From positions 1 to 45,099 of IMG/VR virus record IMGVR_UViG_3300029787_000095: a DNA stretch of 45,099 nucleotides; one strand, 5' to 3'. A program made the translations under genes and the position numbers. Below the pieces are notes generated by a model. It ran no database searches and was not told the origin of the DNA. It saw only the letters and a list, made by a program, of their open reading frames with translations. The stretch is from a virus. Shown one piece after another: positions 3,047 to 21,549 of this stretch (positions are counted from its first letter, which is position 1; each line of letters begins with the position of its first letter).

Positions 3047-4495
3047 ATGACCCCCGCCGCCGGTTTCGCCACCAAGCCGAACAGCGCCCCGCTTGCGCAG
3101 CTGACCCCCCGGCAACGCGAGGCCAACCGCCTACTCGCCAGCCCGGCGCGCAACATCATGCTCCGCGGCGGCTCTCGCTCAGGCAAGACCTTCCTGCTCG
3201 TGCGCGCCATTATCCAGCGCGCCATCAACGCGCCGAACAGCCGGCACGCGATATTCCGCTTCCGCTTCAACCACGCGAAGACGACCATCTGGGCAGACAC
3301 GATCCCGACCGTGCTCAAGCTGTGCTTTCCGACGCTGCGGGTGCGGTTCGACAAGACCGACTTCTACGTCGAGATGCCGAACGGGTCGCAGGTCTGGATT
3401 GCCGGGCTTGACGACAAGGAACGGGTCGAGAAAATCCTCGGCGCCGAGTATGTCACCCTCTACTTCAACGAAAGCTCCCAGATCCCGTGGGGCTCGATCG
3501 AAACGGCTATGTCCCGACTGGCGCAGAAGGTGGCGCTCGATCCGGCTATCGCCAAGCAGACCGGGCGCACGCATCTCGCGCTCAAGGCATACTTCGACTG
3601 CAACCCGCCCTCGAAACTGCACTGGTCCTACCAACTGTTCCGCGCGAAGCTGAAACCGGGCACCAAGGAAGCGCTCGCCAACCCCGACGATTACGCCGAG
3701 ATGAAGGTCAATCCGGCCGACAACGCCGAGAACCTGCCAGACGAGTATTTCGAAGTCCTTGCCAACATGAGCGCGGCCAAGCGTCTGCGCTTCGAAGCGG
3801 GCGAATGGGCGAGCGAGGTCAATGGCGCGCTGTGGTCGCTCGAGGACCGGCATGTCGAGGCGACGGTCGAGCCGGACGGGACCGAAGTGCCGGGCTACGA
3901 CATCACCGGGATCGACAGCACCCGGGCAACGCTCGAATGGGTCGGCGACACGCCCTACGCGGTCTACAACGGCGCGCGCATCGCCATGCAGCGCATCGTG
4001 GTCGCGGGTGACCCGAGCGGCACGAAAGGAGATGGCGGGGGCGATGACGTGGGCATCGTGGTGGCCGGACTTGGCACCGATGGCCGCGGCTACGTCTTCG
4101 AGGACGCCAGCGTGAATCTGTCGCCAGAAGGCTGGGGGCGCCGCATCATCGAGCGCTTCACCCGATGGGGCGCTGACCGCGTGGTCGGGGAAGCGAACTA
4201 CGGAGGCGACATGGTGCGCGCGACCATTCAGGCCAGCGACAAGAGCGTGCCCTACAAGCCGGTCAACGCGACCCGGGGCAAGGTGGTGCGCGCCGAACCA
4301 ATCAGCGCGCTCTACGAGCAGGGCAAGATCAGCCATGTCGGCGTGTTCCCCGATCTCGAGGACCAGATGTGCAACTTCACCGCATCCGGCTACGTCGGCG
4401 AAGGCTCCCCCGACCGGGCAGATGCGCTGGTCTGGGCGCTGACCGAGTTGATGCTCGGCAAGGGCAAGCGCCCGGGGCTGGGGGATGTGCTTTAG
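3047..4495 (+). CDS. terL: Terminase large subunit (Terminase_6 type)
   Basis: 482 residues. The ATPase domain has Walker A GGSRSGKT (41-48) and a Walker B-like VTLYFNE (136-142), with the motor coupling motif near FDCNPPS (183-189). The C-terminal nuclease (RNase H-like fold) shows GDPSG at 321-325, an acidic strand with EAN at 382-384 and SPDRADAL (454-461), the usual acidic triad placement. TerL cuts concatemers and pumps DNA through the portal. The length is normal for the family and no frameshift is seen. It ends with TAG, whose last base is the first base of a GCGGCGGTAA element. Confidence 0.93.
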   Translation: MTPAAGFATKPNSAPLAQLTPRQREANRLLASPARNIMLRGGSRSGKTFLLVRAIIQRAINAPNSRHAIFRFRFNHAKTTIWADTIPTVLKLCFPTLRVRFDKTDFYVEMPNGSQVWIAGLDDKERVEKILGAEYVTLYFNESSQIPWGSIETAMSRLAQKVALDPAIAKQTGRTHLALKAYFDCNPPSKLHWSYQLFRAKLKPGTKEALANPDDYAEMKVNPADNAENLPDEYFEVLANMSAAKRLRFEAGEWASEVNGALWSLEDRHVEATVEPDGTEVPGYDITGIDSTRATLEWVGDTPYAVYNGARIAMQRIVVAGDPSGTKGDGGGDDVGIVVAGLGTDGRGYVFEDASVNLSPEGWGRRIIERFTRWGADRVVGEANYGGDMVRATIQASDKSVPYKPVNATRGKVVRAEPISALYEQGKISHVGVFPDLEDQMCNFTASGYVGEGSPDRADALVWALTELMLGKGKRPGLGDVL

Positions 4496-4504
4496 CGGCG
4501 GTAA
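4495..4504 (+). promoter_or_regulatory. Late-region element GCGGCGGTAA, copy 1 (before portal)
   Basis: Exact 10-mer starting on the last base of the TerL stop, 33 nt before the portal ATG at 4538. One of six identical copies in the structural region. Confidence 0.65.
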
Positions 4505-4537
4505 TCCCCACGCCCCTATCGCGCCACACCCGCAGCC

Positions 4538-6406
4538 ATGGGCAAAGTGCTAAACCTGTTTGATGGGCTCCGTAGTGCCCTCACCGGCACCGGGACCGCC
4601 CGCGATGCCCGAACCTCCTACGATTACGCCTTCCGCGCGCTGACGCAGCCCGAGATCGCCGCGGCCTATTCCGGCTCCGGCCTCCTGCGCAAAATCTGCC
4701 AGATCCCCGCGCTCGACATGGTGCGCGAGTGGCGGACGTGGAATGGGCTTGAGGCCGATCAGGTCGCCAAGGTCTATGCCGAGGAAAAGCGCATCGGCCT
4801 CGTCGGCCTTGTGCGCCAGGCGGAAGTTCTCCGCGCTCTCGGCGGCGGTGCACTCATCATGGGCCTGCCCGGTGACCCGACGCAGCCCGCGCGCCCGACC
4901 GACAAGCTCGCATTCGTGCACGTCGTCTCCCGCTGGCACCTGACCTTCGCCCAGCTGCAGGACGACGCCACCAAGCCGGGCTTTGGCGAGCCCGAAATGT
5001 GGACGATGAACACCACGGTCGGGACCAAGGACATCCACCCGAGCCGCGTCATCCCGTTCCGCGCCGATCGCACCGCCTCGCTCGCCATGCCGACGCTCAA
5101 CAGCGCCGATGCGTTCTGGGGCGAGAGTACGGTCTCGCAGGTGCTCGACGCGGTGAAGGACAGCGACGCCGCGCGCGCCGCGTTCGCCGCCTTGCTGCAC
5201 AAGGCCAAGACGATGCGGATCGGTATCCCGAAGCTGTACGAGATGGTCGCAGCGGGCGAGGACCAGAAGGTATTCGACCGTCTCGCCATCCTCGCCACCG
5301 CGGAATCGATGCACAACGCGGTCGTGTTCGACAATGGCGACGACGAGGGCAAAGGCGGCGAGGCAATCACCGACGCCGAATACAACTTCGCCGGCGCCAA
5401 GGACATGCTCTACGCCTACGGCGAATTCGTGGCCGCGATCTCCGATATTCCGGCAACGCGACTGCTTGGCCGCGCGCCCGAGGGGATGAACGCGAGCGGG
5501 GACAGCCAGCAGAAGGATTGGCAGAAGAAGGTTCGGGCCATGCAGGAACTCGACCTGACGCCCTGCCTCGACAGCCTCGACCCGCACCTACTCGCCGCTG
5601 CCGGTGCATCGGCCGACAAGGCGAACGCATCCTGGGATCCGCTCGACACGCCTTCGGAGAAGGAAAACGCCGAGCGGTTCAAGACGCAGATGGAAGCGAT
5701 CGACAAGCTGCAGGCGACCGCGGCCATTCCCGACGAGGCGTTCAACCGCGGCGTGCAATCGCTCATGGTCGAGGAAGGCTATCTGCCCGAGCTCGAGCTT
5801 GCGCTGTCGGAACTCGGCGACGACGAACGGTACGGGATCGGCCTGCCCGACGATCCCCTGTCGAAAGGAGGTGATCCGGTATCTCTTGGCGGAGGCGGGG
5901 CAGATGATGTCCCGCCGCGCCTTGCTGCGAATGATGCCGCGCCGCGCCCGCTTTACGTGAAGCGCGAACTGCTCAATGCTGCCGACCTCGTGGCGTGGGC
6001 GAAGAAGAACGGCTTCGACAGTACCCTCGCCGCCGAGGACATGCACGTCACGATCCTCTATAGCCGCTCGCCGGTCGACCCGATGAAGATGGGCGAGACC
6101 TGGACGAGCGAAGAGAACGGCGGGCTTACCATCAAACCGGGCGGCCCCCGCGCGCTCGAACGCTTCAACGAAGGCGCGGTCGTGCTGCAGTTCGCCAGCT
6201 GGTCGCTCGAAAGCCGCCACCGCGAAATGGTCGAGGCAGGCGGCTCGCACGATTGGCCGGAATACCTGCCGCACGTCACGCTTTCGTATCAGGCGGGCGA
6301 CATCGATCTCGAAACGCTGGTTCCGTATTCGGGCGAGCTTCGGTTCGGGCCTGAGATTTTCGAGCCGCTGGACTTGGATTGGAAGAGCAAGATCGAGGAG
6401 GCGTAG
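4538..6406 (+). CDS. Portal protein (DUF1073) fused to a C-terminal 2H phosphoesterase (Acb1-like)
   Basis: 622 residues. Residues 1 to about 440 match the DUF1073 portal family (SYDYAFRALTQPEIAAAYSG, then a helical crown region), which forms the dodecameric DNA channel at the capsid vertex. After a Gly/Asp-rich linker (about 440-470) comes a separate domain of about 150 residues with two HxT motifs: H503-V-T505 and H579-V-T581, both followed by hydrophobic strands. Paired HxT motifs about 75 residues apart define 2H phosphoesterases, and the geometry resembles T4 Acb1, which cleaves cyclic nucleotide signals of CBASS defence. DUF1073 and Acb1-like domains are known to be associated in family databases as I recall. 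Enzymatic activity is inferred from the motifs only. Confidence 0.88.
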   Translation: MGKVLNLFDGLRSALTGTGTARDARTSYDYAFRALTQPEIAAAYSGSGLLRKICQIPALDMVREWRTWNGLEADQVAKVYAEEKRIGLVGLVRQAEVLRALGGGALIMGLPGDPTQPARPTDKLAFVHVVSRWHLTFAQLQDDATKPGFGEPEMWTMNTTVGTKDIHPSRVIPFRADRTASLAMPTLNSADAFWGESTVSQVLDAVKDSDAARAAFAALLHKAKTMRIGIPKLYEMVAAGEDQKVFDRLAILATAESMHNAVVFDNGDDEGKGGEAITDAEYNFAGAKDMLYAYGEFVAAISDIPATRLLGRAPEGMNASGDSQQKDWQKKVRAMQELDLTPCLDSLDPHLLAAAGASADKANASWDPLDTPSEKENAERFKTQMEAIDKLQATAAIPDEAFNRGVQSLMVEEGYLPELELALSELGDDERYGIGLPDDPLSKGGDPVSLGGGGADDVPPRLAANDAAPRPLYVKRELLNAADLVAWAKKNGFDSTLAAEDMHVTILYSRSPVDPMKMGETWTSEENGGLTIKPGGPRALERFNEGAVVLQFASWSLESRHREMVEAGGSHDWPEYLPHVTLSYQAGDIDLETLVPYSGELRFGPEIFEPLDLDWKSKIEEA

Positions 6407-7249
6407 GTGCGCGTTGACCTCGCTGCAATGACCCGCCGCGCAAAGAACCCGCGCCGCACCGTCATCCCCATTCGCCCGATCAAGGCGCAGGCAACCCAAG
6501 CGACAAACCTGTACCAAAGCGCCTATCGCCCGGTCGTCCAAGCATGGGAAGCCTCCCTGCCCGCGATCCTTGCCGAGTACGAGCGCACCCTTGCCCAGAT
6601 GACGACCGACAGCCCTGCCGATGTCGAGGCGCGGATTGGCCAGGCGGAAGCTGAGGCGCAGTCGATCGTGCTGCGGGTGTCGATCGCACTGGAGCGGTGG
6701 GCGGCTGCTGTTGAGCGCTGGCATAGGCGACGCTGGGTCGCGAACGTGCTCTCGGCTACGAGCGTGGACCTGAGCACGATGATTGGTGCGGGCGACATGC
6801 GGATGACGCTCGAGGCGGCGATTGCCCGCAACACCGGGCTGATCAAGTCGGTGTCGGACGAAACGCGGCGCCGAGTTGGCGATGCCGTGTTCCGCGGGCT
6901 GCAGAACCGCACGCCGTCCCGCGATGTTGCGCGCCAGTTGCGCGAGGCCGTGGGGATTGAGCGGCGCCGGGCGCTGCGCATCGCCAGTGACCAGAACGTC
7001 AAGATCGCCTCTGCCTTGAACGAAGAGCGGCGGCGGCAGGCCGGGATCATGGCGTGGCAGTGGATCCATTCCGACAAGGTGAACTTCCGGCCGGAGCATG
7101 ACGCCCGCGACGGGTTTCTCTATTCCGATGAGCCAAGCGATGCCGGGCGCGAATACCAGGGCAAGACTGTGCGCCGGCCGCCGTCTGATCGCCCCGGGGA
7201 GCTTCCGTTTTGTGGCTGCACCTCGCGGGCCGTGCTCATCCTCGAATAA
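6407..7249 (+). CDS. Phage head morphogenesis / minor head protein (Mu gpF / SPP1 gp7-like)
   Basis: 280 residues from GTG 6407, directly after the portal stop. The long helical N-terminal half leads to the typical C-terminal signature of the Phage_Mu_F family: WQWIHSDKVNFRPEHDARDG, then EYQGKTVRRPP, GELPFCGCTSRAVL. Such proteins join the portal in the procapsid and can be injected with DNA. The conserved Asp/His/Cys pattern near the end (HD, CGC) is seen across the family and may bind metal. The position next to the portal fits. Confidence 0.85.
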   Translation: MRVDLAAMTRRAKNPRRTVIPIRPIKAQATQATNLYQSAYRPVVQAWEASLPAILAEYERTLAQMTTDSPADVEARIGQAEAEAQSIVLRVSIALERWAAAVERWHRRRWVANVLSATSVDLSTMIGAGDMRMTLEAAIARNTGLIKSVSDETRRRVGDAVFRGLQNRTPSRDVARQLREAVGIERRRALRIASDQNVKIASALNEERRRQAGIMAWQWIHSDKVNFRPEHDARDGFLYSDEPSDAGREYQGKTVRRPPSDRPGELPFCGCTSRAVLILE

Positions 7250-7285
7250 TCGCTTCGCCCGCGCCGCCCCGTGTGGTATCAAAGC

Positions 7286-7318
7286 GGGCCGCAACGGGTG
7301 TGGTTACCCGCGCGGCCC
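7286..7318 (+). terminator. Nested hairpin between minor head gene and moron
   Basis: Outer stem GGGCCGC (7286-7292) pairs with GCGGCCC (7312-7318); inner stem CGGGT (7295-7299) pairs with ACCCG (7306-7310). No U-tract follows, so it may be a weak terminator or an RNA processing/stability element. The same outer stem is used at 11470-11498. Confidence 0.5.
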
Positions 7319-7346
7319 TGACCAGTAACCGCATTGGAGTGCGATC

Positions 7347-8054
7347 ATGGGTATTTTCTCTCGTAGCGAAACTGCCGACACCATCAACCGTTCTGATGAA
7401 AAATCGGAGTGGGCTCGCGCGCAGGAATATAGCAAAACTCTCGACGAAATGGCTCGCGAGGAAGATGTTAAGCTGCGCGAGCGCGTTCCGGACCTCACGC
7501 TCGAATACGAGGCTGAGCACGCCTCGCAAGTCGAAGGGTTCAACTACCGCTTCCAGCGGCACGGCGATTTTCTGACTGTCAGCCTAACCCGCGCGGCGAA
7601 TGACAGCGCATGGTACGGGCCCAAGCATGTCGAGACATTCAATCTCGGCAAGACGAATTCGATCCGCTTCACGGAAGGCAAGGCACCTGCTTATTTGGGC
7701 GGGTTCGGATGGATTGTTTTCACTGAGTATGAGACCGGAGGGACTGGTCAGAGTTCGGCCTCCCCGACAACTCCTCCGCGGGACGGAAAGCACGTTCTAA
7801 GGCCGGCCCGCCATCCCGGCGCACCAGGTGGCAGAGTGATGCTTTGCAAAGAGGAGGGGAAACCCCGTAATTTTATATCCATGGGAGGCGGGGTGAATTA
7901 CAGGACGACTGATTTCCCGATGCCTTCGGAAGATGATGCGATCCGCTTTGATGGTATCGGGCTTACGATTTATGCACCATTCGGTCTGGGCGAAAAGATG
8001 CACGCCGATCTTTTGGCTGAAATCGGACGCGGTTGGGAAGCATCCCATGACTGA
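7347..8054 (+). CDS. Hypothetical protein, possible moron
   Basis: 235 residues, ATG at 7347 with GGAG 12 bases upstream. I do not recognise a family. The first 70 residues are highly charged and helical (WARAQEYSKTLDEMAREEDV); the middle (RFQRHGDFLTVSLTRAANDS) looks like beta strands; the second half contains a Pro/Gly-rich linker. Codon choice is less GC-biased than in its neighbours (for example AAA, AAT and TTT codons). It lies between the minor head gene and two tiny genes, after a 97-bp gap holding a hairpin. These are typical signs of a moron acquired separately; the function is unknown. Confidence 0.65.
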   Translation: MGIFSRSETADTINRSDEKSEWARAQEYSKTLDEMAREEDVKLRERVPDLTLEYEAEHASQVEGFNYRFQRHGDFLTVSLTRAANDSAWYGPKHVETFNLGKTNSIRFTEGKAPAYLGGFGWIVFTEYETGGTGQSSASPTTPPRDGKHVLRPARHPGAPGGRVMLCKEEGKPRNFISMGGGVNYRTTDFPMPSEDDAIRFDGIGLTIYAPFGLGEKMHADLLAEIGRGWEASHD

Positions 8055-8340
8055 CATCATCGAACGCGCAGCGCGGGCAGTTGCCGCGATCGATTATCGC
8101 AGGGAAGTTCGTGACTGCGCTCGCCCGGCAGACCCGCCTGTATTCACGCCCGTGCCGTGGGATGACCTACCCGCGAAGGCGCAACTGGAAAGCATGGAAA
8201 AGGCCCGCGCCGTCCTCCGCGCGATCCGCGAGCCGACACCTTGGATGAAAAAGGCTGGAGCTGTCGACTTCGGAGGCCGCGACTGGATGCTCGAAGAGTT
8301 ATGGGCTGGGGTGATCGACGCCGCGCTGGGGGAAGAGTGA
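8047..8340 (+). CDS. Small phage hypothetical protein
   Basis: 97 residues, ATG 8047, overlapping the previous gene by 8 bp and the next by 1 bp. It has the layout of small accessory proteins common in phages of GC-rich proteobacteria: an N-terminal IIERAARAVAAID helix and a central EKARAVLRAIREPT segment. No catalytic motif is visible. Overlaps on both sides argue that it is translated as part of one transcript with the flanking genes. Confidence 0.65.
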   Translation: MTDIIERAARAVAAIDYRREVRDCARPADPPVFTPVPWDDLPAKAQLESMEKARAVLRAIREPTPWMKKAGAVDFGGRDWMLEELWAGVIDAALGEE

Positions 8341-8540
8341 TGGCCATGGACGCGGGCTTCTATTGGATACGCGCCAAGCGTCCGAATGCCGAATGGACCG
8401 TGGCAAGGTTTGACGGTGACGATAGCTTAGGCTGGACGTTCTTCAACAACCTACATCTTGCCGACACTGATGAACTGTTCGGCGATGGCGAAGATGGTAT
8501 GGGCTACGAGCTCGGCCCGCGAATCTCCGAACCAACCTAG
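8340..8540 (+). CDS. Small phage hypothetical protein (FYWIR-type)
   Basis: 66 residues, ATG 8340 overlapping the previous TGA. It contains FYWIRAKRPNAEWTVARFDG, a pattern repeatedly seen in short phage proteins of unknown function whose aromatic residues alternate in beta strands. It is acidic towards the C-terminus. Its stop codon shares its G with a GCGGCGGTAA element. Confidence 0.65.
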   Translation: MAMDAGFYWIRAKRPNAEWTVARFDGDDSLGWTFFNNLHLADTDELFGDGEDGMGYELGPRISEPT

Positions 8541-8549
8541 CGGCGGTAA
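8540..8549 (+). promoter_or_regulatory. Late-region element GCGGCGGTAA, copy 2 (before DUF2213 gene)
   Basis: Exact copy beginning on the last base of the upstream TAG, 31 nt before the ATG at 8581. It heads the protease-cement-capsid module. Confidence 0.65.
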
Positions 8550-8580
8550 ACGCCTCCCCTGCCCTGCCTATGCGTAGGGC

Positions 8581-9696
8581 ATGTTCTGTGCGGACCACCT
8601 TACGCTAGACGCTCCCCAGCGGACCCGTGATGGGTTCCTCAAAGTGCGCGCCCGAGCTGCTCGCACCGGGATCTACGATTACGCAGGCCACGAGGTCGAC
8701 CCGAACAACGAGCATGGCCTGCGCGACAAAGCCGTGGTCAAGGTCTATCGCCCCGGCGATCAGGTCTTCGACCGCGCCAGCCTAGCCAGCTTCGTCGGCA
8801 AGCCCATCACCGACAACCACCCGACCGACCCGGTAACGCGCGACAACTGGCGCGACCATGCGCGGGGCACGATCATGGGCGCGGTTCGCGATGGCGAATA
8901 CGTGGCCTTCGACCTGATGCTGACCGATGGCGCGACCATCGACGCCGTGGAAGCGGGCAAGCGCGAACTATCGAACGGGTACGCCACCGACCTCAAGTTC
9001 GAACCGGGCAACGCGCCCGATGGCACGGCCTATGACGCCGTGCAGACCTCGATCACCGGAAACCATATCGCGCTGGTCGACAGGGGCCGGGCCGGTTCCG
9101 AATGCCGAATCTCGGATCGCTTTGCGGTCTGCGATGCCAACCCCGCCCGCGTGGCGGAACTCACCGCAACCAAGGATGAACCCATGAAGAAGATCACGCT
9201 TGATGGTCTGCAGGTCGATTTGTCGGATGCTGACGCTGTCAGCGCGGCCTTCGACAAGCTGCAGGCAAAAGTCGCGACCGCCGACAAGGCCCTCGCCGAC
9301 GCCCAGACCGAACACGACAAGGCAATCGCGAAGCTCGACGCGAAGGTCGAAGAACTCGAAAGCAAGGTCGTCGACCAGGCCCAGATCGACGCGCTCGCCG
9401 ACGCCAAGGCCGACACCGTGGCCAAGGCCAAGGCTGTCTGCGGCGACAAGCTGCCCGACACTGCCGGCAAGACCGTGGGCGAAGTTCGCCGCATGGCTCT
9501 CGACGCCAAGGGCATCGACTGCACCGACAAGTCGGACGACTACATCGAGGCTCGCTTCGATGCGCTGACTGCGGATGCATCGGGCAAGGTCGAGCCGATC
9601 ACCCCGAAAACCACCACGAATGACGCAGCCAGCGACATTGTCGCCGCTCGCGCCGCTCGCAACGCCCGTCTCGCGACGGCTTACAAGGGAGCCTGA
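8581..9696 (+). CDS. DUF2213 prohead protease/scaffold-like protein
   Basis: 371 residues. Residues 1 to about 185 match DUF2213 (GIYDYAGHEVDP, then VGKPITDNHP, RELSNGYATDLKFEPG, NHIALVDRGRAG), a family placed just before capsid genes and thought to be a prohead protease analogue. Residues about 200-270 form a long charged coiled coil (AKVATADKALADAQTEHDKA and on), as expected for scaffolding, and the Lys/Ala-rich end resembles capsid-binding scaffold tails. An in-frame ATG at 9184 with a ribosome site would make the scaffold part separately. Protease activity is inferred from family and position. Confidence 0.85.
   Translation: MFCADHLTLDAPQRTRDGFLKVRARAARTGIYDYAGHEVDPNNEHGLRDKAVVKVYRPGDQVFDRASLASFVGKPITDNHPTDPVTRDNWRDHARGTIMGAVRDGEYVAFDLMLTDGATIDAVEAGKRELSNGYATDLKFEPGNAPDGTAYDAVQTSITGNHIALVDRGRAGSECRISDRFAVCDANPARVAELTATKDEPMKKITLDGLQVDLSDADAVSAAFDKLQAKVATADKALADAQTEHDKAIAKLDAKVEELESKVVDQAQIDALADAKADTVAKAKAVCGDKLPDTAGKTVGEVRRMALDAKGIDCTDKSDDYIEARFDALTADASGKVEPITPKTTTNDAASDIVAARAARNARLATAYKGA
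9184..9696 (+). CDS. Possible internally initiated scaffold protein (nested in DUF2213 gene)
   Basis: In-frame ATG at 9184 (reading MKKITLDGLQVDLSD), preceded by AAGGATG about 10 bases upstream. It would yield a 170-residue protein made only of the coiled-coil scaffold half. The arrangement parallels lambda C/Nu3, where a protease gene contains a separately translated scaffold. This is an inference from domain boundary and start signal. Confidence 0.4.
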   Translation: MKKITLDGLQVDLSDADAVSAAFDKLQAKVATADKALADAQTEHDKAIAKLDAKVEELESKVVDQAQIDALADAKADTVAKAKAVCGDKLPDTAGKTVGEVRRMALDAKGIDCTDKSDDYIEARFDALTADASGKVEPITPKTTTNDAASDIVAARAARNARLATAYKGA

Positions 9697-9699
9697 ACC

Positions 9700-10149: not shown

Positions 10150-10161
10150 GGAGCCTGACCA

Positions 10162-11469: not shown

Positions 11470-11501
11470 GGGCCGCTTCGCATAGCGCGGGGCGGCCCTT
11501 T
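11470..11501 (+). terminator. Terminator after the capsid module
   Basis: Stem GGGCCGC (11470-11476) with GCGGCCC (11492-11498), an inner CGC-ATA-GCG hairpin, then TTT. It is followed 6 bases later by a GCGGCGGTAA element, so one transcript seems to end where another may begin. Confidence 0.75.
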
Positions 11502-11506: not shown

Positions 11507-11516
11507 GCGGCGGTAA
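11507..11516 (+). promoter_or_regulatory. Late-region element GCGGCGGTAA, copy 3 (before DUF4054 connector)
   Basis: Exact copy directly downstream of a terminator and 32 nt before the ATG at 11549. Placement after a terminator favours a promoter role. Confidence 0.7.
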
Positions 11517-11548
11517 TTCCGCGCCGCGCATAGGAGCAAACCGAAGTC

Positions 11549-11920
11549 ATGGCATACACCGCGCCTACCCTCTCAGCTTTCCGCGCGCTCTACCCTGCGT
11601 TCGATGCCGTGGCCGATGCGACCGTGCAGGCATGGCTGGACAAGGGCGAGACCGAGACCGCGAACTGGCCTGATGCGAACCGCGACGACGGGATTATGCT
11701 TTTCACCGCGCACCGGCTGACGACGCAGGGGCTTGGTGCGGGCGCGATTCCGGCCGGTGTCACCAGTTTCAAATCTGGCACATTCTCGGCGACCGTTTCG
11801 GACGGCCTCGCAAGCAAGACCGGCTTCGCTGCGACCGGCTACGGCCGCGACTATATCGACCTCTCCAAGCGCATCTTCGGCGGGCCCCGTCTCGCATGGA
11901 CTCCCCCGACCCGTGTTTGA
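11549..11920 (+). CDS. Head-tail connector (DUF4054)
   Basis: 123 residues, ATG 11549 with TAGGAGC upstream. Residues 5-60 carry the DUF4054 pattern (LSAFRALYPAFDAVADATVQ, then MLFTAHRLTTQGLG), an all-helical adaptor that docks under the portal. The C-terminal part (ATGYGRDYIDLSKRIFGGPR) is typical of the family. It is the first gene of the connector module and overlaps the next by 8 bp. Confidence 0.85.
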   Translation: MAYTAPTLSAFRALYPAFDAVADATVQAWLDKGETETANWPDANRDDGIMLFTAHRLTTQGLGAGAIPAGVTSFKSGTFSATVSDGLASKTGFAATGYGRDYIDLSKRIFGGPRLAWTPPTRV

Positions 11921-12703: not shown

Positions 12704-12913
12704 ATGACCACCATCGAACTCGACGCCCCGTGGACCTACCGCACGCCGGAAAAGACCATCAACTATCCGGCCGGCAAGCACGAGGTTTTCCAATACATCG
12801 CCGACCAGGCCGAGGCCGAGGGCGCTATCACGAAGAAGGAGGAAGCCGATGGCGACGCCGACAAGCCTGCAACGCCTCGCAAAGCGCGCTCTGCTGACAA
12901 GGGCAAAGGCTGA
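12704..12913 (+). CDS. Small charged protein between tail completion genes
   Basis: 69 residues with AGGAGC upstream (12692-12697). A short beta-like start (DAPWTYRTPEKTINYPAGKH) is followed by a highly charged tail rich in Lys, Glu and Asp. It overlaps the next gene by 65 bp in a different frame, so its tail is constrained by that gene. It resembles small neck-region proteins of similar phages; no specific function can be assigned. Confidence 0.65.
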   Translation: MTTIELDAPWTYRTPEKTINYPAGKHEVFQYIADQAEAEGAITKKEEADGDADKPATPRKARSADKGKG

Positions 12914-13286
12914 CACGGGGCTGACGGCCCTTGTTCCGGCCGCCTCTATCGCGCCAGACGGTACGCCGTCTTGGCCGTTCATCCTTATCGCAAGCCCGCG
13001 CACGCTGCGCCTTCGATCCGCCTGTGTCCGCGGAGCGACGGTATCGTTCGACGTTCACACGTTCGCCGGGCCGCGGGAGAGCGGCGGCGCGGTAGTCGAG
13101 ACCGGCGAGGATCACATCGCCCGCATCGGATCCGCGATCGAGACCGTGTTCGCCGACAACCGCCTGGTGCTGGCCGGCGGCGCGGTGTGCAAGATCGAGT
13201 TCTCCGACATGCAGCTGCTACCCGACGACGAGCCCGACCACTGGCACTGGATTTCGCAACTGAATTGCCGAGTGCTCGCGGAATAG
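12849..13286 (+). CDS. Tail completion / tail terminator protein (DUF3168)
   Basis: 145 residues, ATG 12849 within the preceding gene (AGGAGG ribosome site at 12837-12842). It follows the DUF3168 pattern: an N-terminal helix (SLQRLAKRALLTRAKADTGL), a strand-rich core with VSFDVHTFAGPRESGG, and a helix followed by a final strand (HWHWISQLNCRVLAE). The family forms the ring that ends tail tube growth. The order DUF4054, gp10, DUF3168, tail tube is standard. Confidence 0.82.
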   Translation: MATPTSLQRLAKRALLTRAKADTGLTALVPAASIAPDGTPSWPFILIASPRTLRLRSACVRGATVSFDVHTFAGPRESGGAVVETGEDHIARIGSAIETVFADNRLVLAGGAVCKIEFSDMQLLPDDEPDHWHWISQLNCRVLAE

Positions 13287-13298
13287 GTATAAGGCGGC

Positions 13299-13496
13299 GT
13301 GGACGTTCACCCGCCCAACCCCGCGCTCGACGTGTTCCTGATCCTGCTGTCGGAGCTTCACCGATCGGGCACGCTCGACGACGAAGGATTGGCGCGCGTG
13401 ATGGAAAAGCTCGAGCAGTCCGAATATCACGACATTGCCGACCGGGTGGCTGCGCTTCCGCTCATGAACCTGCTGGGTGAAATCAAGCGGCGGTAA
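13299..13496 (+). CDS. Small helical hypothetical protein
   Basis: 65 residues from GTG 13299. It is mainly helical (ALDVFLILLSELHRSG, then LARVMEKLEQSEYHDIADRV) and lies between the tail terminator and the tail tube. The last two codons and stop are formed by a GCGGCGGTAA element. It may be a small tail assembly helper; no family is recognised. Confidence 0.6.
   Translation: MDVHPPNPALDVFLILLSELHRSGTLDDEGLARVMEKLEQSEYHDIADRVAALPLMNLLGEIKRR
13487..13496 (+). promoter_or_regulatory. Late-region element GCGGCGGTAA, copy 4 (before tail tube)
   Basis: Exact copy that encodes the final Arg-Arg-stop of the upstream gene, 57 nt before the tail tube GTG at 13554. Confidence 0.6.
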
Positions 13497-13553
13497 ATCG
13501 GGCTGGCGAGCGGCCCTAGCGTCTCTGCGTGTAATTCAACGCGGAGAAGCCGA

Positions 13554-14000
13554 GTGAGTGTTCCGAACGAATCCGACTTTGCCCTCATCAAGATCGGTGA
13601 CGGCGAAGCAACCGAGACCTTCACCGCGATCTGCGGCATCGAAAACGTCTCGATCAACCGTACTGCCAATACGAACGACCGCTTCCGCCGCGACTGTGCG
13701 AAGCCGGGTGTTCCTGCCGTTCGCCGCTCGCGCACGACCGGCAAGCAGATGGACATCACCGGCACCGGCGGTGTGGACAAGGCCAGCATCGCGGATTTCG
13801 AAGCTGCTCTCGGCATCGTGGGCAACTATCAGATCGAGCTCTATCAGTACGACGGCACCGACACCGGCGATCTGATGGGCACCTTTGCCGGCGCCTTCAA
13901 TATGACCAGCGCCAACATGAGCCTCGACGCGAACGGCGACAGTTCGGGCGAAGTCACGCTTGCCAGCGATGGCACCTGGACGTGGACGGCCGAAGCCTGA
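13554..14000 (+). CDS. Major tail tube protein
   Basis: 148 residues from GTG 13554 (GGAG about 12 bases upstream). Pattern, size and position match tail tube proteins of GTA-like and lambda-like siphophages: an N-terminal strand pair, NRTANTNDRFRRDCAKPGVP (a loop typical of the group), TTGKQMDITGTGG, and a beta-rich C-terminus ending GTWTWTAEA. It would polymerise around the tape measure. It lies directly before the chaperone and tape measure genes. Confidence 0.83.
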   Translation: MSVPNESDFALIKIGDGEATETFTAICGIENVSINRTANTNDRFRRDCAKPGVPAVRRSRTTGKQMDITGTGGVDKASIADFEAALGIVGNYQIELYQYDGTDTGDLMGTFAGAFNMTSANMSLDANGDSSGEVTLASDGTWTWTAEA

Positions 14001-14637: not shown

Positions 14638-14647
14638 CGCATCGCGG

Positions 14648-14947: not shown

Positions 14948-14959
14948 TCCACTCCCCTT

Positions 14960-14969
14960 GCGGCGGTAA
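14960..14969 (+). promoter_or_regulatory. Late-region element GCGGCGGTAA, copy 5 (before tape measure)
   Basis: Exact copy 45 nt before the tape measure TTG start (15015), placed just after the antisense gene's start region. It would give the tape measure module its own signal. Confidence 0.65.
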
Positions 14970-15014
14970 TTTCACAGCCACCGCAATTTACTGATCGTGT
15001 CAAGGAGCAGCACC

Positions 15015-17849
15015 TTGGCCGAAGTCGATCCCGTCATCCTTGAAATCCGCGCCGAGCTTGGCCGGTACAAGGCGGAACTGCGCTCCACCACAACCAGCGT
15101 CGAGCGGCTTCTTGGCCGGCAGGAGAAGTCGGCTAAACGCCTTGAAGCCGAAATGCGCCGCTCGTCGAGCGCAATTGCCAGCACTCTACGCGGCCTAGCT
15201 GGCACCCTCGCCGCGGCATTCACCGGGCGCGAACTGGTCGGACTGATCGACGGATTTACGCGCCTGCAGAACAATCTGCGCGTTGCGGGGCAGGAAGGCG
15301 AAAACCTCGCCCGCGTTCAATCGAGCCTGCTTTCGATCAGTCAGCAATACGGCGTGGATGTCGAGACGCTTTCGGGCGTGTTCCTCAAGGCCAGCTTGGC
15401 TCAGAACGAACTGGGCGCGTCGACCGAAGAGATCATTCGCCTCAACGAGATCGTCGCGGCCTCGCTCAAAATCACCGGCACCAGCGCGGAAGAAGCGCGG
15501 GGGGCGCTGCTGCAACTTGGCCAGGCGCTTGGTTCTGACGTGGTGCGCGGCGAAGAATTCAACTCGCTGCTCGAAAATGCGCTGCCGCTTGTCCAAGCTG
15601 CGGCTCGCGGCATTGATCGCTTCGGCGGATCGGTCGCGCGGCTTCGCGCGGAGGTGGTCGACAGCAAGGTCACATCGCAAGAGTTCTTCGAAGGCGTGCT
15701 TCGCGGCGGAGTTCAGACGATCGAGGACGCCGAAAAGGCGAACCTCACGCTGGCCGGTTCGTTCGAAGCGCTGCGCAGCCAGTTGCTCGTCTACTTTGGC
15801 GAGGCTGGCAAGGGTGCCGGGGCTACCGAGGCGCTGACATCAGCCATAAACGCCCTCGCTGACAATCTCGACGTCATCATCCCTGCGCTGGCCACCATTG
15901 CTCTCGCTCTCGGCGTCAAAATGGTCGGCAGCGCCGTGGCAGCGAGCAGTGCAATGTTCGCGCTGACGGCAGTCATGGGCGGGGCCGCGACTGCCACCGA
16001 AGGGCTCACCTTCGCTATGGCGGGCCTGACACGCGTCCTCCCCCTCGCCGCGCTAACCGCAGTGATCGGCGCGCTTGGCTATCTCGCTGTCGAGGCCCAC
16101 CGTGCGAGCGGCGAAGTGGCAGCGCTTGCGAGCGAGGCCGACGCGGCTCAAGCCGAAGCCGAGGCGATGGAAAAGCGCATCAAGGATGCGGGGGGCGAGA
16201 CCGATAAGCTGGGCTCGGCTGCGCAAACTGCGCGCGGAGATATGGGCGACCTCACCGGCGCTATGGAAGGTGCCCGGCAGAAGGCTGCGGAACTTGGCCA
16301 GCAAGCCGAGCGCACCGGCAAGCAATTGCTGCAGATGCGGTTGCAGGAAGTTCTCGGCCAGCGCCAACAGATCACCAATTCGCGCAACTCGCGCCAGCGC
16401 AACATCGCCTCGCAGACGCGCACGGGTGACGCGCTGGCCACCTCTGGCGACGCTACATTCCGTGCTCGCGAAAATCAGGAGTTGGCCGAGCTTCAACGTC
16501 TCGAAGAGGCGCTGCGTTTCCAAATTCAGAACTATGGGCTGGATCCGGGTCCTGCGGGGGTCGCGGTTCGCGCGCCGACTGCGTCATCCGATAAGGCGAA
16601 AAAGAGCGCCAAGACCCGCACCCGTTCCGGTCCCGACGCTGCGGAGATCGCCGCCCGGCAGGAAGCCGAGATCGCCCGCCTGCGCGCCGAGGAAATTCAG
16701 GCGCGGCTCAATCTCACCGAGGACATCGACGAGCGCGCCAACCTGCAGGCGGAACTCGACGCAATCGAACTTGCCCAGCGCCGCGCCGACATCGAGAGCA
16801 ACGCCGACCTGAGCCGTGCGCAGAAGGATGCGCAGCTTGAAATCCTCAACGGGCTGTTCGGCGTATCGGGCGAGATCGACGAGCAGGGCCGCATCATCGT
16901 GCGCGGCAACGAAGGGCTGTATGCGCAAATCCGCGAGCGCGAGGCGCAGTTTGAAGAGCTACGCCGCGCCGGCCAACTCGAAGCCGATACCGCGCGGGCG
17001 AAAGAGGATGTTCTTCGCAGTCAGCTTTCCATCACGTCCGACCGCGAAGAGCGCGCTCGCCTTGAGCGCCAGATACTCGACATCCAGATCGAGGCGGCCA
17101 AGGCCGAACTACGCAACCAGATCGCGACGCTGGAACTGGCCAAGGGGCGCGAGAAAGAAGTCGCCCTGCTTCGCCAGCGCTTGTCTGACCTAGACACGAT
17201 CCGCGCGAACGAGGCGGAAGGCATTGCCCGCGACAACGAAAGCCCGCTGCAGCGCTATGCCCGCGGGCTCAACGAAAGCGACCTTGGCGACGAAGCCGAG
17301 CAGCTTATCGTCGACGAGATCGAGACGGTGCGCGGCGGTATTCGCGACGCCATTGCGGACGCGATCGGCACCGACGACCCGCTGATCACCGGGCTGCTCG
17401 ACCTGCTGTTGCAAGACCTGATCTTCAAGCCGCTGGCGAACAGCTTGGCCAACGCGAGCGGCGGTGGGGGCGGCGGTTTCATTCAAGTGATCGGCGGCGT
17501 TCTTGGCGCATTCGCGGGCGGCCGCGCATCGGGCGGTTATGTCTCGCCGGGCACCATGTACCGCGTCAACGAAGGCTCAAGCCCCGGGCGAGTCGAGGGC
17601 TTCCGGCCGGCGGGTTCTGGCGAGATCATCCCGCTAGGCCAGATGAACGCGCTCGCGAACGGCGGGATGCGCTCGGCGGCGGGCGGCGGCGTCGCGGTCG
17701 TGCGCCTCGAGCTTTCCGGCGACATCGACGCGCGCATCGACCAGCGCAGCACCAACGTCGCGGTCGAGGTCACCCGCGCAACGGCCCCGCGCCTGATCGA
17801 TGCGGCGGCAAACGAAACCGCGCGCCGCTTTAGCAGGCCCAAGCTATGA
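15015..17849 (+). CDS. Tail tape measure protein
   Basis: 944 residues from TTG 15015, chosen because AAGGAG (15002-15007) lies 7 bases upstream; the alternative GTG at 14997 has no ribosome site. The N-terminal region (about residues 60-240) matches the tape measure N domain: LVGLIDGFTRLQNNLRVAG, then EEARGALLQLGQALGSDVVR and GEEFNSLLENALPLVQAAAR. A hydrophobic stretch follows (about 285-360), then long coiled coils rich in Arg/Glu/Ala, and a Gly-rich region before a C-terminal part with GGYVSPGTMYRVNEG. It sets tail length and is ejected before DNA. Confidence 0.9.
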   Translation: MAEVDPVILEIRAELGRYKAELRSTTTSVERLLGRQEKSAKRLEAEMRRSSSAIASTLRGLAGTLAAAFTGRELVGLIDGFTRLQNNLRVAGQEGENLARVQSSLLSISQQYGVDVETLSGVFLKASLAQNELGASTEEIIRLNEIVAASLKITGTSAEEARGALLQLGQALGSDVVRGEEFNSLLENALPLVQAAARGIDRFGGSVARLRAEVVDSKVTSQEFFEGVLRGGVQTIEDAEKANLTLAGSFEALRSQLLVYFGEAGKGAGATEALTSAINALADNLDVIIPALATIALALGVKMVGSAVAASSAMFALTAVMGGAATATEGLTFAMAGLTRVLPLAALTAVIGALGYLAVEAHRASGEVAALASEADAAQAEAEAMEKRIKDAGGETDKLGSAAQTARGDMGDLTGAMEGARQKAAELGQQAERTGKQLLQMRLQEVLGQRQQITNSRNSRQRNIASQTRTGDALATSGDATFRARENQELAELQRLEEALRFQIQNYGLDPGPAGVAVRAPTASSDKAKKSAKTRTRSGPDAAEIAARQEAEIARLRAEEIQARLNLTEDIDERANLQAELDAIELAQRRADIESNADLSRAQKDAQLEILNGLFGVSGEIDEQGRIIVRGNEGLYAQIREREAQFEELRRAGQLEADTARAKEDVLRSQLSITSDREERARLERQILDIQIEAAKAELRNQIATLELAKGREKEVALLRQRLSDLDTIRANEAEGIARDNESPLQRYARGLNESDLGDEAEQLIVDEIETVRGGIRDAIADAIGTDDPLITGLLDLLLQDLIFKPLANSLANASGGGGGGFIQVIGGVLGAFAGGRASGGYVSPGTMYRVNEGSSPGRVEGFRPAGSGEIIPLGQMNALANGGMRSAAGGGVAVVRLELSGDIDARIDQRSTNVAVEVTRATAPRLIDAAANETARRFSRPKL

Positions 17850-18448
17850 CCGAGATCATCGTCCCGAACGCTGACGACTTCCTGCTCGACAGCCTGCGCC
17901 TTCGCGCACCGGCGCAAGTCAATCGCTCGACATGGACCGGGCGGCGCAAGGTCATCGGCCTGGCGGGCACCGAAGTCTGGACCGGGCAAGCGACGATCGA
18001 CCTGATCACGACCGAGGAACAGGAGCGCCAATGGCGCGCATTCCTGTTCGCGCTCGAGGGGCCGGTCAACTGGTTCCGCTGGCGCCTGCCGTGCAACAGC
18101 CATATCGGCCCGAAGCCAACCGTCGATACGGGCGCGTCGGACGGGTACGCGCTGCCCCTCACCGGCGGGCAACCGAATGCGCGGATACTGCGCGCCGGCC
18201 AGTTCATGACTGTGCCCCTGCCCTCCGGCCACGCCCGCGCGGTGTGCCTGACCGCAGACCTGCGCTTCGATGCGTCGGGGGATGCGACGGCGCAGTTCAA
18301 GCCCGCATTGAACGAGACACCGACCGAGGGAGCTACGGTCGAGACGACCGACCCGTACATTCCCATGAGCGCTGTCGATCCCGAGCAGGGGCTCAACAGC
18401 GCGGACGGCGTGTCTGGGGCGACCTTCGACGTCGAGGAGGCGCTGTGA
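17846..18448 (+). CDS. Distal tail-like protein
   Basis: 200 residues, ATG 17846 overlapping the tape measure stop by 4 bp. The N-terminal half is a beta domain with NRSTWTGRRKVIGLAGTEVW and a WRAFLFALEGPVNWFRWRLP core, typical of minor tail proteins placed right after the tape measure; the second half is Thr/Asp-rich. By position it should be the distal tail or first tip protein that caps the tube. The family is inferred from context. Confidence 0.65.
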   Translation: MTEIIVPNADDFLLDSLRLRAPAQVNRSTWTGRRKVIGLAGTEVWTGQATIDLITTEEQERQWRAFLFALEGPVNWFRWRLPCNSHIGPKPTVDTGASDGYALPLTGGQPNARILRAGQFMTVPLPSGHARAVCLTADLRFDASGDATAQFKPALNETPTEGATVETTDPYIPMSAVDPEQGLNSADGVSGATFDVEEAL

Positions 18449-19110
18449 GCCTGCCCGACCCAACCTATTCGGCAGCGCTCGACGAGCCGATCGTCAAGCC
18501 GGTCTGGTTCGCCTTCCTCGATTTCGTGGGCGACCCGGTGCGCGCGAACACGAGTGGGCGGAACATAACCCCGGCAGGGTTCGACGATCCCGACTTAGAC
18601 GACCAGACCTTTATTGGCATCTCGGGCACGCTTGTCGCGGTGTCCCCGGTCAAGATTAGCGAAGGCGGGTCCGAGACTGTCACAGCCCAGCTATCCGGCA
18701 TTCCCGGTCTCGATGATGACGTGATCGCGATGATCAACGATTCCTCCAATTGGCAAAGCCGCGACGCCCGCCTCTGGAAAATCATCCGCAATGCCGCGAA
18801 CGTGCAGCAGGGCGGCTTCGACGCCTACTACACCGGCAAGATGGTCGGCCTCACGCATTCGGGTTCGGGTGAAGGGCAGGTGCTCACCGTCACAATCGAG
18901 AGCTATCTCGGCGTATTCTCCGAACCGTCGAACAACACCTATCTCGACCAGGAGCGCTACGACCCGGGTGATGAAAGCGCGCGGGCGGCCATTGCAATCG
19001 CGAACGGCAATTACACCGGCGCGCGGACTGGAAGCGGCGGCGGGGGTGGCGGGACCGGCCCGGGCGGGCGCGGCAATGTCTTCGGCGGGCCAAGGTACGA
19101 TTACCTATGA
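18445..19110 (+). CDS. Tail tip / baseplate hub-like protein
   Basis: 221 residues from GTG 18445, overlapping the previous stop. It contains repeated strand motifs (TFIGISGTLVAVSPVKISEG, then SETVTAQLSGIPG) and a DARLWKIIRNA segment, followed by a Gly-rich C-terminal tail (GSGGGGGGTGPGGRG) ending YDYL. It sits where DUF2163-like hub proteins occur in GTA-type tails, before an NlpC/P60-like protein. No enzymatic motif is visible; a structural role in the tip is inferred. Confidence 0.65.
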   Translation: MSLPDPTYSAALDEPIVKPVWFAFLDFVGDPVRANTSGRNITPAGFDDPDLDDQTFIGISGTLVAVSPVKISEGGSETVTAQLSGIPGLDDDVIAMINDSSNWQSRDARLWKIIRNAANVQQGGFDAYYTGKMVGLTHSGSGEGQVLTVTIESYLGVFSEPSNNTYLDQERYDPGDESARAAIAIANGNYTGARTGSGGGGGGTGPGGRGNVFGGPRYDYL

Positions 19111-19535
19111 CGCGGCTACCGGATTGGGAAGCGCGGCTGTCCGCATGGATCGTGGCCAACCGGTCGCGCGAGTTCGCGTGGGGGCAATGGGATTGCATTC
19201 TCATGGCCTGCTCGGCGGTCGAGGCGCAAACCGGCGCTGACCCGGCTGCTGAATACCGCGGGCGCTACAGCGATGCGCGCGGCGCGGCGGAGGCTTTGCG
19301 CGAGCTCGGCAAGGGGACACTGCTCAAGACCGTCGATGCTGAGTTCGATCGGCGCCCGGTCGGGAAGGCACGGCGCGGGGATCTCGTGATGTTCGACCAG
19401 AGCATTGGCGTCTGCGTCGGCGGCGCTGGTCTGTTCGTGGGCGAAGAGCGCCTGACCGACGCGGCCGGCATCCCGATGCGCGCAGGGCTGGTTACCATTC
19501 CTCGCGCCTCCCTCACACAAGCTTGGACGGTCTGA
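19107..19535 (+). CDS. NlpC/P60-like tail protein (DUF6950 type)
   Basis: 142 residues overlapping the previous gene by 4 bp. The segment WGQWDCILMACSAVEAQTG carries the DC motif that starts the catalytic helix of NlpC/P60-like cysteine peptidases, and later ARRGDLVMFDQSIGVCVGGA matches the strand after which a His is normally found. A clear catalytic His is not evident (VCVGG in that position), as in the DUF6950 group, so activity is uncertain. Its position before the J-like protein matches lambda K. It would locally open peptidoglycan during DNA entry or help tip assembly. Confidence 0.75.
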   Translation: MTRLPDWEARLSAWIVANRSREFAWGQWDCILMACSAVEAQTGADPAAEYRGRYSDARGAAEALRELGKGTLLKTVDAEFDRRPVGKARRGDLVMFDQSIGVCVGGAGLFVGEERLTDAAGIPMRAGLVTIPRASLTQAWTV

Positions 19536-19536
19536 T

Positions 19537-21540
19537 ATGGGCAAGGTGGTCAAGGCCGTAGCCACGGTGGCGGCAATCGCGGCGGCAATCCCGACCGGCG
19601 GCACTTCGCTCCTCGCTCTTGGCCTCGGCGTATCGTCTCTGGCGGCCACTGCTATAGCCGTGGGCCTTTCGGTAGGCGCATCGCTGCTCAACAAGAAGAG
19701 CAAGCCGCCCAAGAACAGCCCCGAAGCGCTCGACCGATTGCGCGCGAACCTCGACCCGCGAACGCCGCGCAAGACAGCGGTGGGCATCACCGCGCTTGCA
19801 ACCGACATTCGCGACGAGGAATTCACCGACGACCAGACGTATTTTCACCGGTTCATCGTCTGTGCGAGCCACAAGGTCGAAAGCATCGACGAAATCTGGT
19901 TCGACGACGAACGCGTGTGGTCATCGTCCGGTGGTGTGGAGGGCGACGCGGTCGGTTATCTGACGGTCGCGACGCGGCTCGAAGGCAGCGCGGCGAACGC
20001 GATCAACATTTCGAGCCGCATGGGCTCTACGCGGCGCTACACCGGGCTCGCCTACGTCCATCTACGCTACAAGCTGACCGGCAACAGCAAGAAGGCCGAA
20101 AGCCCGTATGCGGGCGGCATCACGACCCGCATCACGATCCGCGGCAAAGGCGCTGCCCTGCCCGATCCGCGCGACCCGTCGCAGGACATGGGCGACCAGT
20201 CGACTTGGGTCTGGGATGATGACGCTTGCCGCAATCCTGCGCTCGCTCTGCTGTTCTATCTGCTCGGCTACCGGATTACCAACCCGTCGACGAGCGAGGA
20301 ACTGCTCGCGGTCGGCAAGGGCATCCCGGCCAATCGCATCGACCTCGACAGCTTCGCCGTGGCGGCCAACATCTGCGACGAGGAAATCGGCAAGGTCGGG
20401 GGCGGCACCGAGCCGCGCTATCGCTGCGACGGCGTGTGGAGCGAGGGCGACAGCCCGACCACCGTTATGGACATGCTCAAGGCCACGATGAACGCCGACC
20501 TCGACGACGTGGGCGGCAAGCTGCGCCTGACGATCTTTCACGACGACCTTGCGGACGTTGCGGCCGAATTCGACGATGGCGACATCATCGACGCCTTCGA
20601 ATGGCAGTCGGTCCCGCCGCTCGACCAGACCTTCAATATCGTCCAGGGCGCATACACCGATGCCAGCGACGTGGGCCTCTATCAGCAGGTCGATTACCCG
20701 CGGCAGGAGGTCAGCAGCCCCGATGGCATCGACCGCATCAGCACGTTCAACCTTCCGATGGTGGAATCGGTCGGGCAGGCGCAGCGCCTTGCGGCCATGC
20801 GCCTCGAGCGCCAGCGCTATGGCGGCGTGTTTTCGGCCGAGTTCCAGGCGACTGCGTGGAAGGTGCAGAAGAACAGCATCGTCAAGCTGACCTTTGCCCA
20901 GACCGGGTTCACCGAAAAGCTGTTCCGGGTCGCCGAGATGGAGATCAGGCAAGACGGCGTGGTGCCGATGACGCTGGTCGAGGAAAACGCCGCGATCTAC
21001 ACCCCGCCCTCGCTTGCCGCCGCGATCGCACCGGTGGCCTCCACGCCGTATCAGCGCGCGCTAGATCCGCTGGTGCAGGCGCTTGGCGAGGTGGATGCGC
21101 AGGCGGCGCGGCTCAAGCTGTCGAGCAGCTACACGCGGGGCCTTGCTGGCAACATCACGCAGCTACACGATGGCACCGGAACAGGAACTGTAACCGTCAC
21201 CATTCCCGACCACACCCGCGTGTATGCGGACAGCACCGAAGCACCTGTAACGGGCGGTGATTTCACGCTGGACGAAACGACCAGCTATCTCCTGTCCTAC
21301 GATGACCCCGATTTCGCGGGCGGTGAATTGGGCGTGGACTTCGCGCTGGTTGAAATCACCCCCGGCACAGGCGGGCAGACAGGCGGCGATGCTTATTTCA
21401 GCGCGGCCAATCCAAGCCGCCATTACCTCGCCAGTATCAGCACGGTGAACGAGGCAGGCGAAGGCGGCGGTGCGGGTGGTTCCTCGCCCCCCGGCGGCGG
21501 TGGCTGGGACAATGACGATCCCGGCGGCGACATACCCTAG
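19537..21540 (+). CDS. Tail tip attachment protein (J-like central fibre protein)
   Basis: 667 residues. The N-terminus has a hydrophobic Ala/Gly-rich segment (residues 8-50), frequent in tip proteins of these phages. The body contains beta domains (SIDEIWFDDERVWSSSGG, RYTGLAYVHLRYKLTG) and a central region resembling the phage tail-tip J core (LLFYLLGYRITNPSTSEELL, then NICDEEIGKVGGG). The C-terminus is Gly/Pro/Asp-rich (GEGGGAGGSSPPGGGG), a probable flexible linker to fibres. It should contact the host receptor. Its stop is overlapped by a GCGGCGGTAA element. Confidence 0.8.
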   Translation: MGKVVKAVATVAAIAAAIPTGGTSLLALGLGVSSLAATAIAVGLSVGASLLNKKSKPPKNSPEALDRLRANLDPRTPRKTAVGITALATDIRDEEFTDDQTYFHRFIVCASHKVESIDEIWFDDERVWSSSGGVEGDAVGYLTVATRLEGSAANAINISSRMGSTRRYTGLAYVHLRYKLTGNSKKAESPYAGGITTRITIRGKGAALPDPRDPSQDMGDQSTWVWDDDACRNPALALLFYLLGYRITNPSTSEELLAVGKGIPANRIDLDSFAVAANICDEEIGKVGGGTEPRYRCDGVWSEGDSPTTVMDMLKATMNADLDDVGGKLRLTIFHDDLADVAAEFDDGDIIDAFEWQSVPPLDQTFNIVQGAYTDASDVGLYQQVDYPRQEVSSPDGIDRISTFNLPMVESVGQAQRLAAMRLERQRYGGVFSAEFQATAWKVQKNSIVKLTFAQTGFTEKLFRVAEMEIRQDGVVPMTLVEENAAIYTPPSLAAAIAPVASTPYQRALDPLVQALGEVDAQAARLKLSSSYTRGLAGNITQLHDGTGTGTVTVTIPDHTRVYADSTEAPVTGGDFTLDETTSYLLSYDDPDFAGGELGVDFALVEITPGTGGQTGGDAYFSAANPSRHYLASISTVNEAGEGGGAGGSSPPGGGGWDNDDPGGDIP

Positions 21541-21549
21541 CGGCGGTAA
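21540..21549 (+). promoter_or_regulatory. Late-region element GCGGCGGTAA, copy 6 (before fibre genes)
   Basis: Exact copy starting on the last base of the J-like stop, 32 nt before the ATG at 21582. It heads the fibre module. Confidence 0.65.

Follow-up and report, generated by a model that had tools for sequence, protein, structure and literature searches.

Repeated boxes upstream of virion gene modules as putative elements of separate late promoters, with a small helix-turn-helix protein as their candidate reader

Introduction

How does a phage bring its virion gene modules into expression when the same short word of DNA stands in front of one module after another? The question is raised by an IMG/VR virus record of 45,099 bases (IMGVR_UViG_3300029787_000095, analyzed over its full length and called the window below), in which the 10-mer GCGGCGGTAA, hereafter the box, occurs six times in the late region. 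A first reading of the window (the original prediction) took the box for a late promoter or activator element that lets each module be expressed separately, and suggested as activator an LmbU-like protein encoded at positions 1097 to 1654. From a comparison with related phages, we conclude that the boxes are very probably the upstream elements of at least six separate late promoters, and we name a smaller protein, encoded next to the LmbU-like one, as the candidate that reads them.

Results

Six boxes in front of virion genes

Six exact copies of GCGGCGGTAA were found, all on the plus strand and none on the minus strand, the reversed pattern having 0 occurrences in the window; each copy lies directly upstream of the start of a virion gene. 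Box 1 (4495 to 4504) precedes the portal gene, with a -10-like CACACC at 4525 to 4530 and an ATG at 4538; box 2 (8540 to 8549) precedes the head maturation protease gene (TATGCG at 8569 to 8574, ATG at 8581); box 3 (11507 to 11516) precedes the gene of a virion structural protein (CAAACC at 11537 to 11542, ATG at 11549); and box 6 (21540 to 21549) precedes the gene at 21582 (TACCCG at 21570 to 21575, ATG at 21582). These four boxes end 33, 31, 32, and 32 nt before their start codons, respectively, and no Shine-Dalgarno (SD) sequence follows boxes 1, 2, and 6. Box 4 (13487 to 13496), before the gene of the major tail (tube) protein, lies 57 nt from a GTG at 13554, and box 5 (14960 to 14969), before the tape measure gene, lies 45 nt from a TTG at 15015; their -10-like sequences are TAGCGT (13517 to 13522) and TACTGA (14989 to 14994), and both have an SD-bearing leader, with AAGGAG in the case of box 5.

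The copies at 4495, 8540, and 21540 fall on a TAG stop codon and a TAA is found at 13494 to 13496, so that the coordinates, distances, and stop codon overlaps of the original prediction were all recovered. The base after the 10-mer, said to be always T or A, is so in the window but is free in relatives. Two details needed amendment: a single one-mismatch copy had been reported where the window has 12, and the stem of the terminator-like hairpin (12 pairs, 11470 to 11498, plus strand), which had been placed 6 bp before box 3, ends 8 nt upstream of it.

With up to one mismatch allowed, the window contains 18 matches to the box, against 5.1 (standard deviation, 1.9) in shuffled sequences, and 0 of 100 shuffles reached 18. 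Repetition by itself is insufficient evidence, because other 10-mers recur five or six times within coding sequence. Nine 10-mers have at least five copies in the window, and GCGGCGGTAA alone has all of its copies (6/6) 15 to 75 nt before a gene start, the runner-up having 1 of 5 there. One of the near matches, GCGGCGGCAA at 17802 to 17811 (plus strand, one mismatch), is followed by a TA at offset 29 and by the ATG of the distal tail protein gene (17846) at offset 44, offsets being counted throughout from the first base of the 10-mer. In the independent IMG/VR set described below, four boxes precede homologs of this gene, and the 17802 site may be a seventh, degenerate late box.

A TA dinucleotide at constant distance from the box

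We then compared about 200 related sites; 76 distinct sites are of the type present in the window (A-type), and an independent IMG/VR set numbers 127. Boxes, spacing, conservation, box types, and gene co-occurrence were all read from sequence. In the related sites, a wider box consensus, TGACGGCGGTAA, is followed by 20 nt and then by a conserved TA. A -10 partner had been expected 12 to 20 bp downstream of the box; a partner does exist, and its distance is 20 bp. Among the 76 distinct A-type sites, 43 show the TA at an offset of exactly 30. The independent scan covered 2.9 million IMG/VR viral contigs and allowed TA at 29, 30, and 31 equally; it yielded 127 distinct sites, 108 of which have TA exactly at 30, and one strict form of the promoter matched at least 120 IMG/VR stretches.

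The start codon is tied to the box as well. It lies at offset 42 to 43 in 38 of 76 A-type sites and in 16 of 27 sites of the B-type introduced below, against 9 and 2, respectively, for antisense sites. Where the start codon lies at 41 to 44, 45/51 sites retain the A of the TA, and this conserved A can be likened to the A at -11 of a sigma-70 -10 element. Starts at offset 41 to 44 rarely have an SD-like sequence (4/51 A-type sites and 0/20 B-type sites), whereas those at 58 to 70 mostly do (12/15 and 3/3). The distance from box to TA is unchanged between the near-start and far-start classes, and the TA thus behaves like a -10 element.

Relatives were examined for the box at the same gene junctions, and it is present there even though the surrounding DNA has diverged. 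Of 25 full records selected through the motif, 18 carry 4 to 8 copies on the same strand. In a Blastomonas genome of 4.0 Mb, five of seven matches to the composite pattern lie within 16 kb of one prophage, and in S. baiyangensis three of four lie in a prophage; the pattern being largely confined to prophages, it is not a host regulon. A scan for sigma-70-type promoters on the plus strand of the window between 4000 and 23900 found none, and literature searches on late promoters of sphingomonads and on leaderless starts had no result. Two other routes to the motif were dropped: per-phage repeat finding by 9-mer counts over whole loci was dominated by codon words, and a free position matrix built from all 112 loci drifted because motif-less relatives were mixed in. 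Together, the -10-like partner, the start geometry, the conservation at junctions, and the existence of two box types strongly support the view that a late promoter or activator element stands before each module.

Two box types and an exchanged gene

A second box, CGTCCGTAG (B-type), occupies the same junctions at the same distance from the start codon in nine loci (L017, L018, L019, L021, L022, L026, L064, L080, and L181); L020 falls outside this group. Locus L024 and the GenBank phage Ssp-JY40 have mostly GCGGCGGGAA boxes. No mixing of A and B boxes was seen within a phage.

We mapped the A/B label onto gene trees. It changes six times on the protease tree, compared with 6.3 for shuffled labels, and five times on the terL tree, twice on that of the LmbU-like protein, and once on the portal tree. 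Each protease junction nonetheless bears the box type of its own phage. As judged from these trees, the protease gene has evidently been exchanged between phage groups, its box having been kept or altered to suit the factor of the recipient. That a swapped gene comes with a box matching its present phage indicates that the box is read by a factor acting in trans.

A small helix-turn-helix protein as candidate reader

Directly after the gene of the LmbU-like protein and just before terS lies a plus-strand gene (1657 to 1824) for an orphan small helix-turn-helix (HTH) protein of 55 amino acids (aa), which we call sHTH. Its predicted model has three helices (pLDDT, 85). We found sHTH in every motif-bearing phage with enough sequence. 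Among the 25 motif-picked full records, it is present in all 18 with at least 4 same-strand copies of the box and in none of the 7 with 1 or 2 chance copies. A homolog of the large terminase (TerL) of the window is detectable in only 5 of those 18 records, so the tie between sHTH and the motif does not merely reflect the terminase lineage. Among the TerL relatives, every one of the 25 motif-bearing loci has sHTH, as does L077, and the 45 other loci all lack it; L077 had been scored motif-less by the strict rule, and its boxes were present on inspection.

The sHTH proteins come in two forms, and all 18 motif-rich records fit the rule that links form to neighbor. The short form, of the YGAR/YGK type, always accompanies an LmbU-like gene, and the long form, mostly of the TNWR type and carrying an RYVxG tail, is never found with one. 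Most simply, the long form would perform by itself the task that the short form shares with the LmbU-like protein. In addition, some phages encode longer proteins with two or three tandem sHTH-like HTH modules (L023, 2852 to 3742; L012, 3708 to 4499; G043, 12786 to 13082).

The LmbU-like protein itself (1097 to 1654, plus strand) was the activator suggested by the original prediction, and an alternative to our proposal is that the boxes are late promoter elements whose specificity is set by this protein, sHTH being an accessory or packaging protein. All 22 aligned LmbU-like members match the NCBIfam model LmbU_fam_TF (best E value, 8.6e-20), and LmbU is a DNA-binding activator (PMC6510168). 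The A/B label needs only the two changes given above on the LmbU-like tree, residues 107 to 133 of the protein are the best separators of A from B, and a near-identical LmbU-like protein is common to the L024/L236 type, with its box GCGGCGGGAA. The predicted structure is all helical (pLDDT, 89) and most resembles, weakly, a Noc/ParB DNA-binding domain with an HTH fold (probability, 0.94; E value, 1.2). However, the protein of the window scores 71.4 bits against NCBIfam NF038070, whose cutoff is 125, and by sequence it is a distant homolog of the LmbU family that we do not file as a member. Moreover, unlike that of sHTH, the gene is lacking in 11 of 31 motif-rich phages (full records or prophages); these are 8 of the 18 motif-rich records together with G003, G007, and prophage G022 of Blastomonas, and all have canonical boxes. 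The suggestion of this protein as activator is thus only partly supported, and we consider it unlikely that it sets the specificity. With somewhat better than even confidence, we favor sHTH for the role of specificity factor at the box, and the LmbU-like protein is probably the partner of its short form.

Other factors that could redirect polymerase were also sought. No protein of 29 phage records scored above the cutoff for sigma-70 region 2, which was detected in 10 control genomes. The RNA_pol family (PF00940) matched in 0 of 20 records, the control genomes likewise giving no match, and no MotA or AsiA family was found in Pfam and PHROG scans of the tested genes, which did not include every open reading frame. 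Elsewhere in the window, the protein encoded at 26691 to 27908 has an N-terminal HTH and an apparent metallophosphoesterase (motifs GDPHFG, GNHD, and GHFHH) and is found on many viral contigs; it was set aside as an activator, being common on such contigs and having, as far as examined, no tie to the motif.

Source record and neighboring features

Positions 1 to 99 and 45001 to 45099 of the record are identical, so that the record probably represents a complete circle of 45,000 bp. The plus-strand gene order is LmbU-like, sHTH, terS, phosphatase, terL, portal, head morphogenesis, protease, major head protein, connectors, tail tube, tape measure, and distal tail; integrase and CI-type repressor genes lie on the strand opposite to the late region. 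Similar large terminases occur in prophages of Sphingomonas, Sphingobium, Blastomonas, and Pelagerythrobacter, and more distant ones in Rhizobium, Sinorhizobium, Shinella, and roseobacters. A search of GenBank phages for near-identical DNA gave no match to the window. The source virus is best explained as a temperate, integrase-bearing siphophage of Sphingomonadales. The GenBank "Synechococcus" phages PP438430 (L383) and OM868076 (L384) belong here too, as they have the LmbU-like protein, sHTH, and GCGGCGGGAA boxes; since their nearest kin infect sphingomonads, their stated host deserves a check.

Two features of the genes behind boxes 1 and 2 should be mentioned. In the portal gene (4538 to 6406), the C-terminal residues 481 to 617 match PHROG 755, labeled RNA ligase, which is probably a wrong label. 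An inverted repeat (8560 to 8581, plus strand) covers the -10 and the ATG of late promoter 2, and about half of the protease promoters have such a repeat of 5 to 7 bp over the -10 and start codon (the window, L024, L062, L064, L080, L167, and L174); the sequences differ between phages and the complementarity is kept, and portal promoters are without it. The repeat could be an operator, or a hairpin that blocks translation from read-through mRNA.

Discussion

We propose the following scheme. The operon of the LmbU-like protein, sHTH, and terminase would be the first to be read. The sHTH protein, either alone or together with the LmbU-like protein, would then bind the box and bring in host polymerase, whose housekeeping sigma factor would use the weak -10; here we infer both the identity of the box-binding protein and its contact with polymerase. 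In this phage, sHTH would act alongside the LmbU-like protein, and elsewhere the longer sHTH would suffice. The promoter would consist of the box (10 bp), 20 bp, a weak -10 (TA, with its A at about -11), about 11 bp, and the transcription start. If the T of the TA is set at -12, the box comes to lie at about -42 to -33, in place of the sigma-70 -35 element. We infer the transcription starts and the leaderless translation that follows from them: a start about 11 to 12 nt past the TA would explain both start classes, as transcripts of the portal, the protease, and the genes at 11549 and 21582 would begin at the ATG or within about 2 bases of it, and those of the tail tube and tape measure genes would have a short leader bearing an SD sequence. 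With its own promoter for each virion module, the phage would not need to overcome terminators such as the hairpin before box 3. We regard this explanation as a whole, with separate late promoters, a box read by sHTH (here with the LmbU-like protein), and recruited host polymerase, as likely.

Several observations speak against parts of this scheme. The -10 partner is weak by the usual consensus, and CA replaces TA in the B group and at two sites of the window. Portal and protease homologs show the same distribution as sHTH in the motif-picked records (18/18 versus 0/7), and part of the association of sHTH must therefore be shared descent. Searches of Pfam, PHROG, and PDB with the sequence and fold of sHTH gave no relative that would name its function. 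Its recognition-helix residues, judged by eye, split A from B imperfectly and alone fail to predict the box type; L024 and L065 have near-identical sHTH proteins and differ in box detail (mostly GCGGCGGGAA versus TGACGGCGGTAA), and their LmbU-like proteins differ more. Finally, the sHTH tree does not unite the B group, although a single clade is not rejected (P = 0.275). As regards shared descent, loci scored motif-less have portal homologs in 28 cases and protease homologs in 25, and sHTH only in L077; motif-less relatives thus keep portal and protease but not sHTH, which separates sHTH from the association of those genes.

Other functions for the boxes can be considered. As these phages have an integrase and a CI-like repressor, and as a site at -42 to -33 could also block polymerase, the boxes might be operators, similar to stoperators, that silence virion genes in the lysogen. 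Yet the sites are confined to the late region and the late strand, and the box sits at the -35 position itself in a region where the plus-strand promoter scan found nothing; removing a repressor would leave no strong promoter, and we hold the operator reading to be quite improbable. Less probable still are linker sequences kept for recombination between modules and devoid of a role in transcription. The boxes do lie at module edges and adjacent genes are exchanged, but a linker would require neither a TA at offset 30 nor a set distance to the start codon nor a rule relating SD sequence to leader, and it predicts the mixed A and B boxes that do not occur. An action in RNA, as an antitermination, processing, or translation signal, agrees with the constant start codon distance of the first site class and is the least credible of all, given that the TA spacing persists when the start codon shifts away, that two unrelated sequences occupy the same places, that the box is not an SD sequence, and that an Rfam search gave no match.

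Late promoters recruiting host polymerase through sHTH remain our preferred explanation. They may, more tentatively, constitute an undescribed late-promoter system, in which an orphan HTH protein of 55 to 110 aa, alone (long form) or with an LmbU-like protein (short form), would re-aim host polymerase to a box replacing the -35 element, modules would be promoted individually, several virion mRNAs would be leaderless, and box specificity would have switched between lineages (GCGGCGGTAA/GCGGCGGGAA and CGTCCGTAG). Such a system would provide a readable rule for late expression in one common, almost unstudied group of temperate phages of alphaproteobacteria, and it singles out a definite, very small protein without known family as candidate activator. 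It predicts leaderless synthesis of the portal and capsid-module proteins. Two box types kept apart while adjoining genes swap amount to a natural experiment on the joint change of regulator and site. In addition, late promoters could be located in unannotated prophages, and the boxes might be put to use as a set of promoters in sphingomonads.

Among known systems, the middle promoters of T4 share with our proposal a phage box in place of the -35 element, a host -10, many copies, and a phage DNA-binding protein working with host polymerase (PMC2988021). In T4, 12 ± 1 bp separate the MotA box, centered at -30, from the -10 (PMC2988021). The present box has another sequence, lies 20 bp from the TA and is centered near -38, and so departs from MotA spacing; it also serves late virion genes, with transcription predicted to begin at the ATG or close by. 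Late activators encoded next to terS, of the RinA/ArpU kind, as well as P2 Ogr and Mu C, are small phage activators produced for the late genes or directly ahead of them. In contrast to these, sHTH has no detectable Pfam or PHROG relation to a known family, and its boxes are asymmetric, without inverted repeats; RinA itself is an established phage activator (PMC9867676).

The LmbU regulators of Streptomyces lincolnensis are homologous to the protein encoded at 1097 to 1654 and have a central HTH, but LmbU binds a palindrome, CGCCGGCG (PMC6510168), whereas the box is asymmetric, and the LmbU-like protein is neither universal among box-bearing phages nor above the family cutoff. The start-associated sequences of cluster K mycobacteriophages are likewise short asymmetric repeats before many start codons, mostly in one orientation; they lie 3 to 7 bp from the start, include the ribosome-binding site, and precede nonstructural genes (PMC3203893). 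The boxes described here, 31 to 57 nt from the start, without AGGAG, with a -10 partner, and before virion genes, are of a different class. Lastly, GafA of the alphaproteobacterial gene transfer agent RcGTA is a phage-derived activator of virion genes that works via host polymerase and binds a promoter upstream of terS (PMC9638019). No GafA relative was noted in the window, where the boxes begin after terL and recur with each module.

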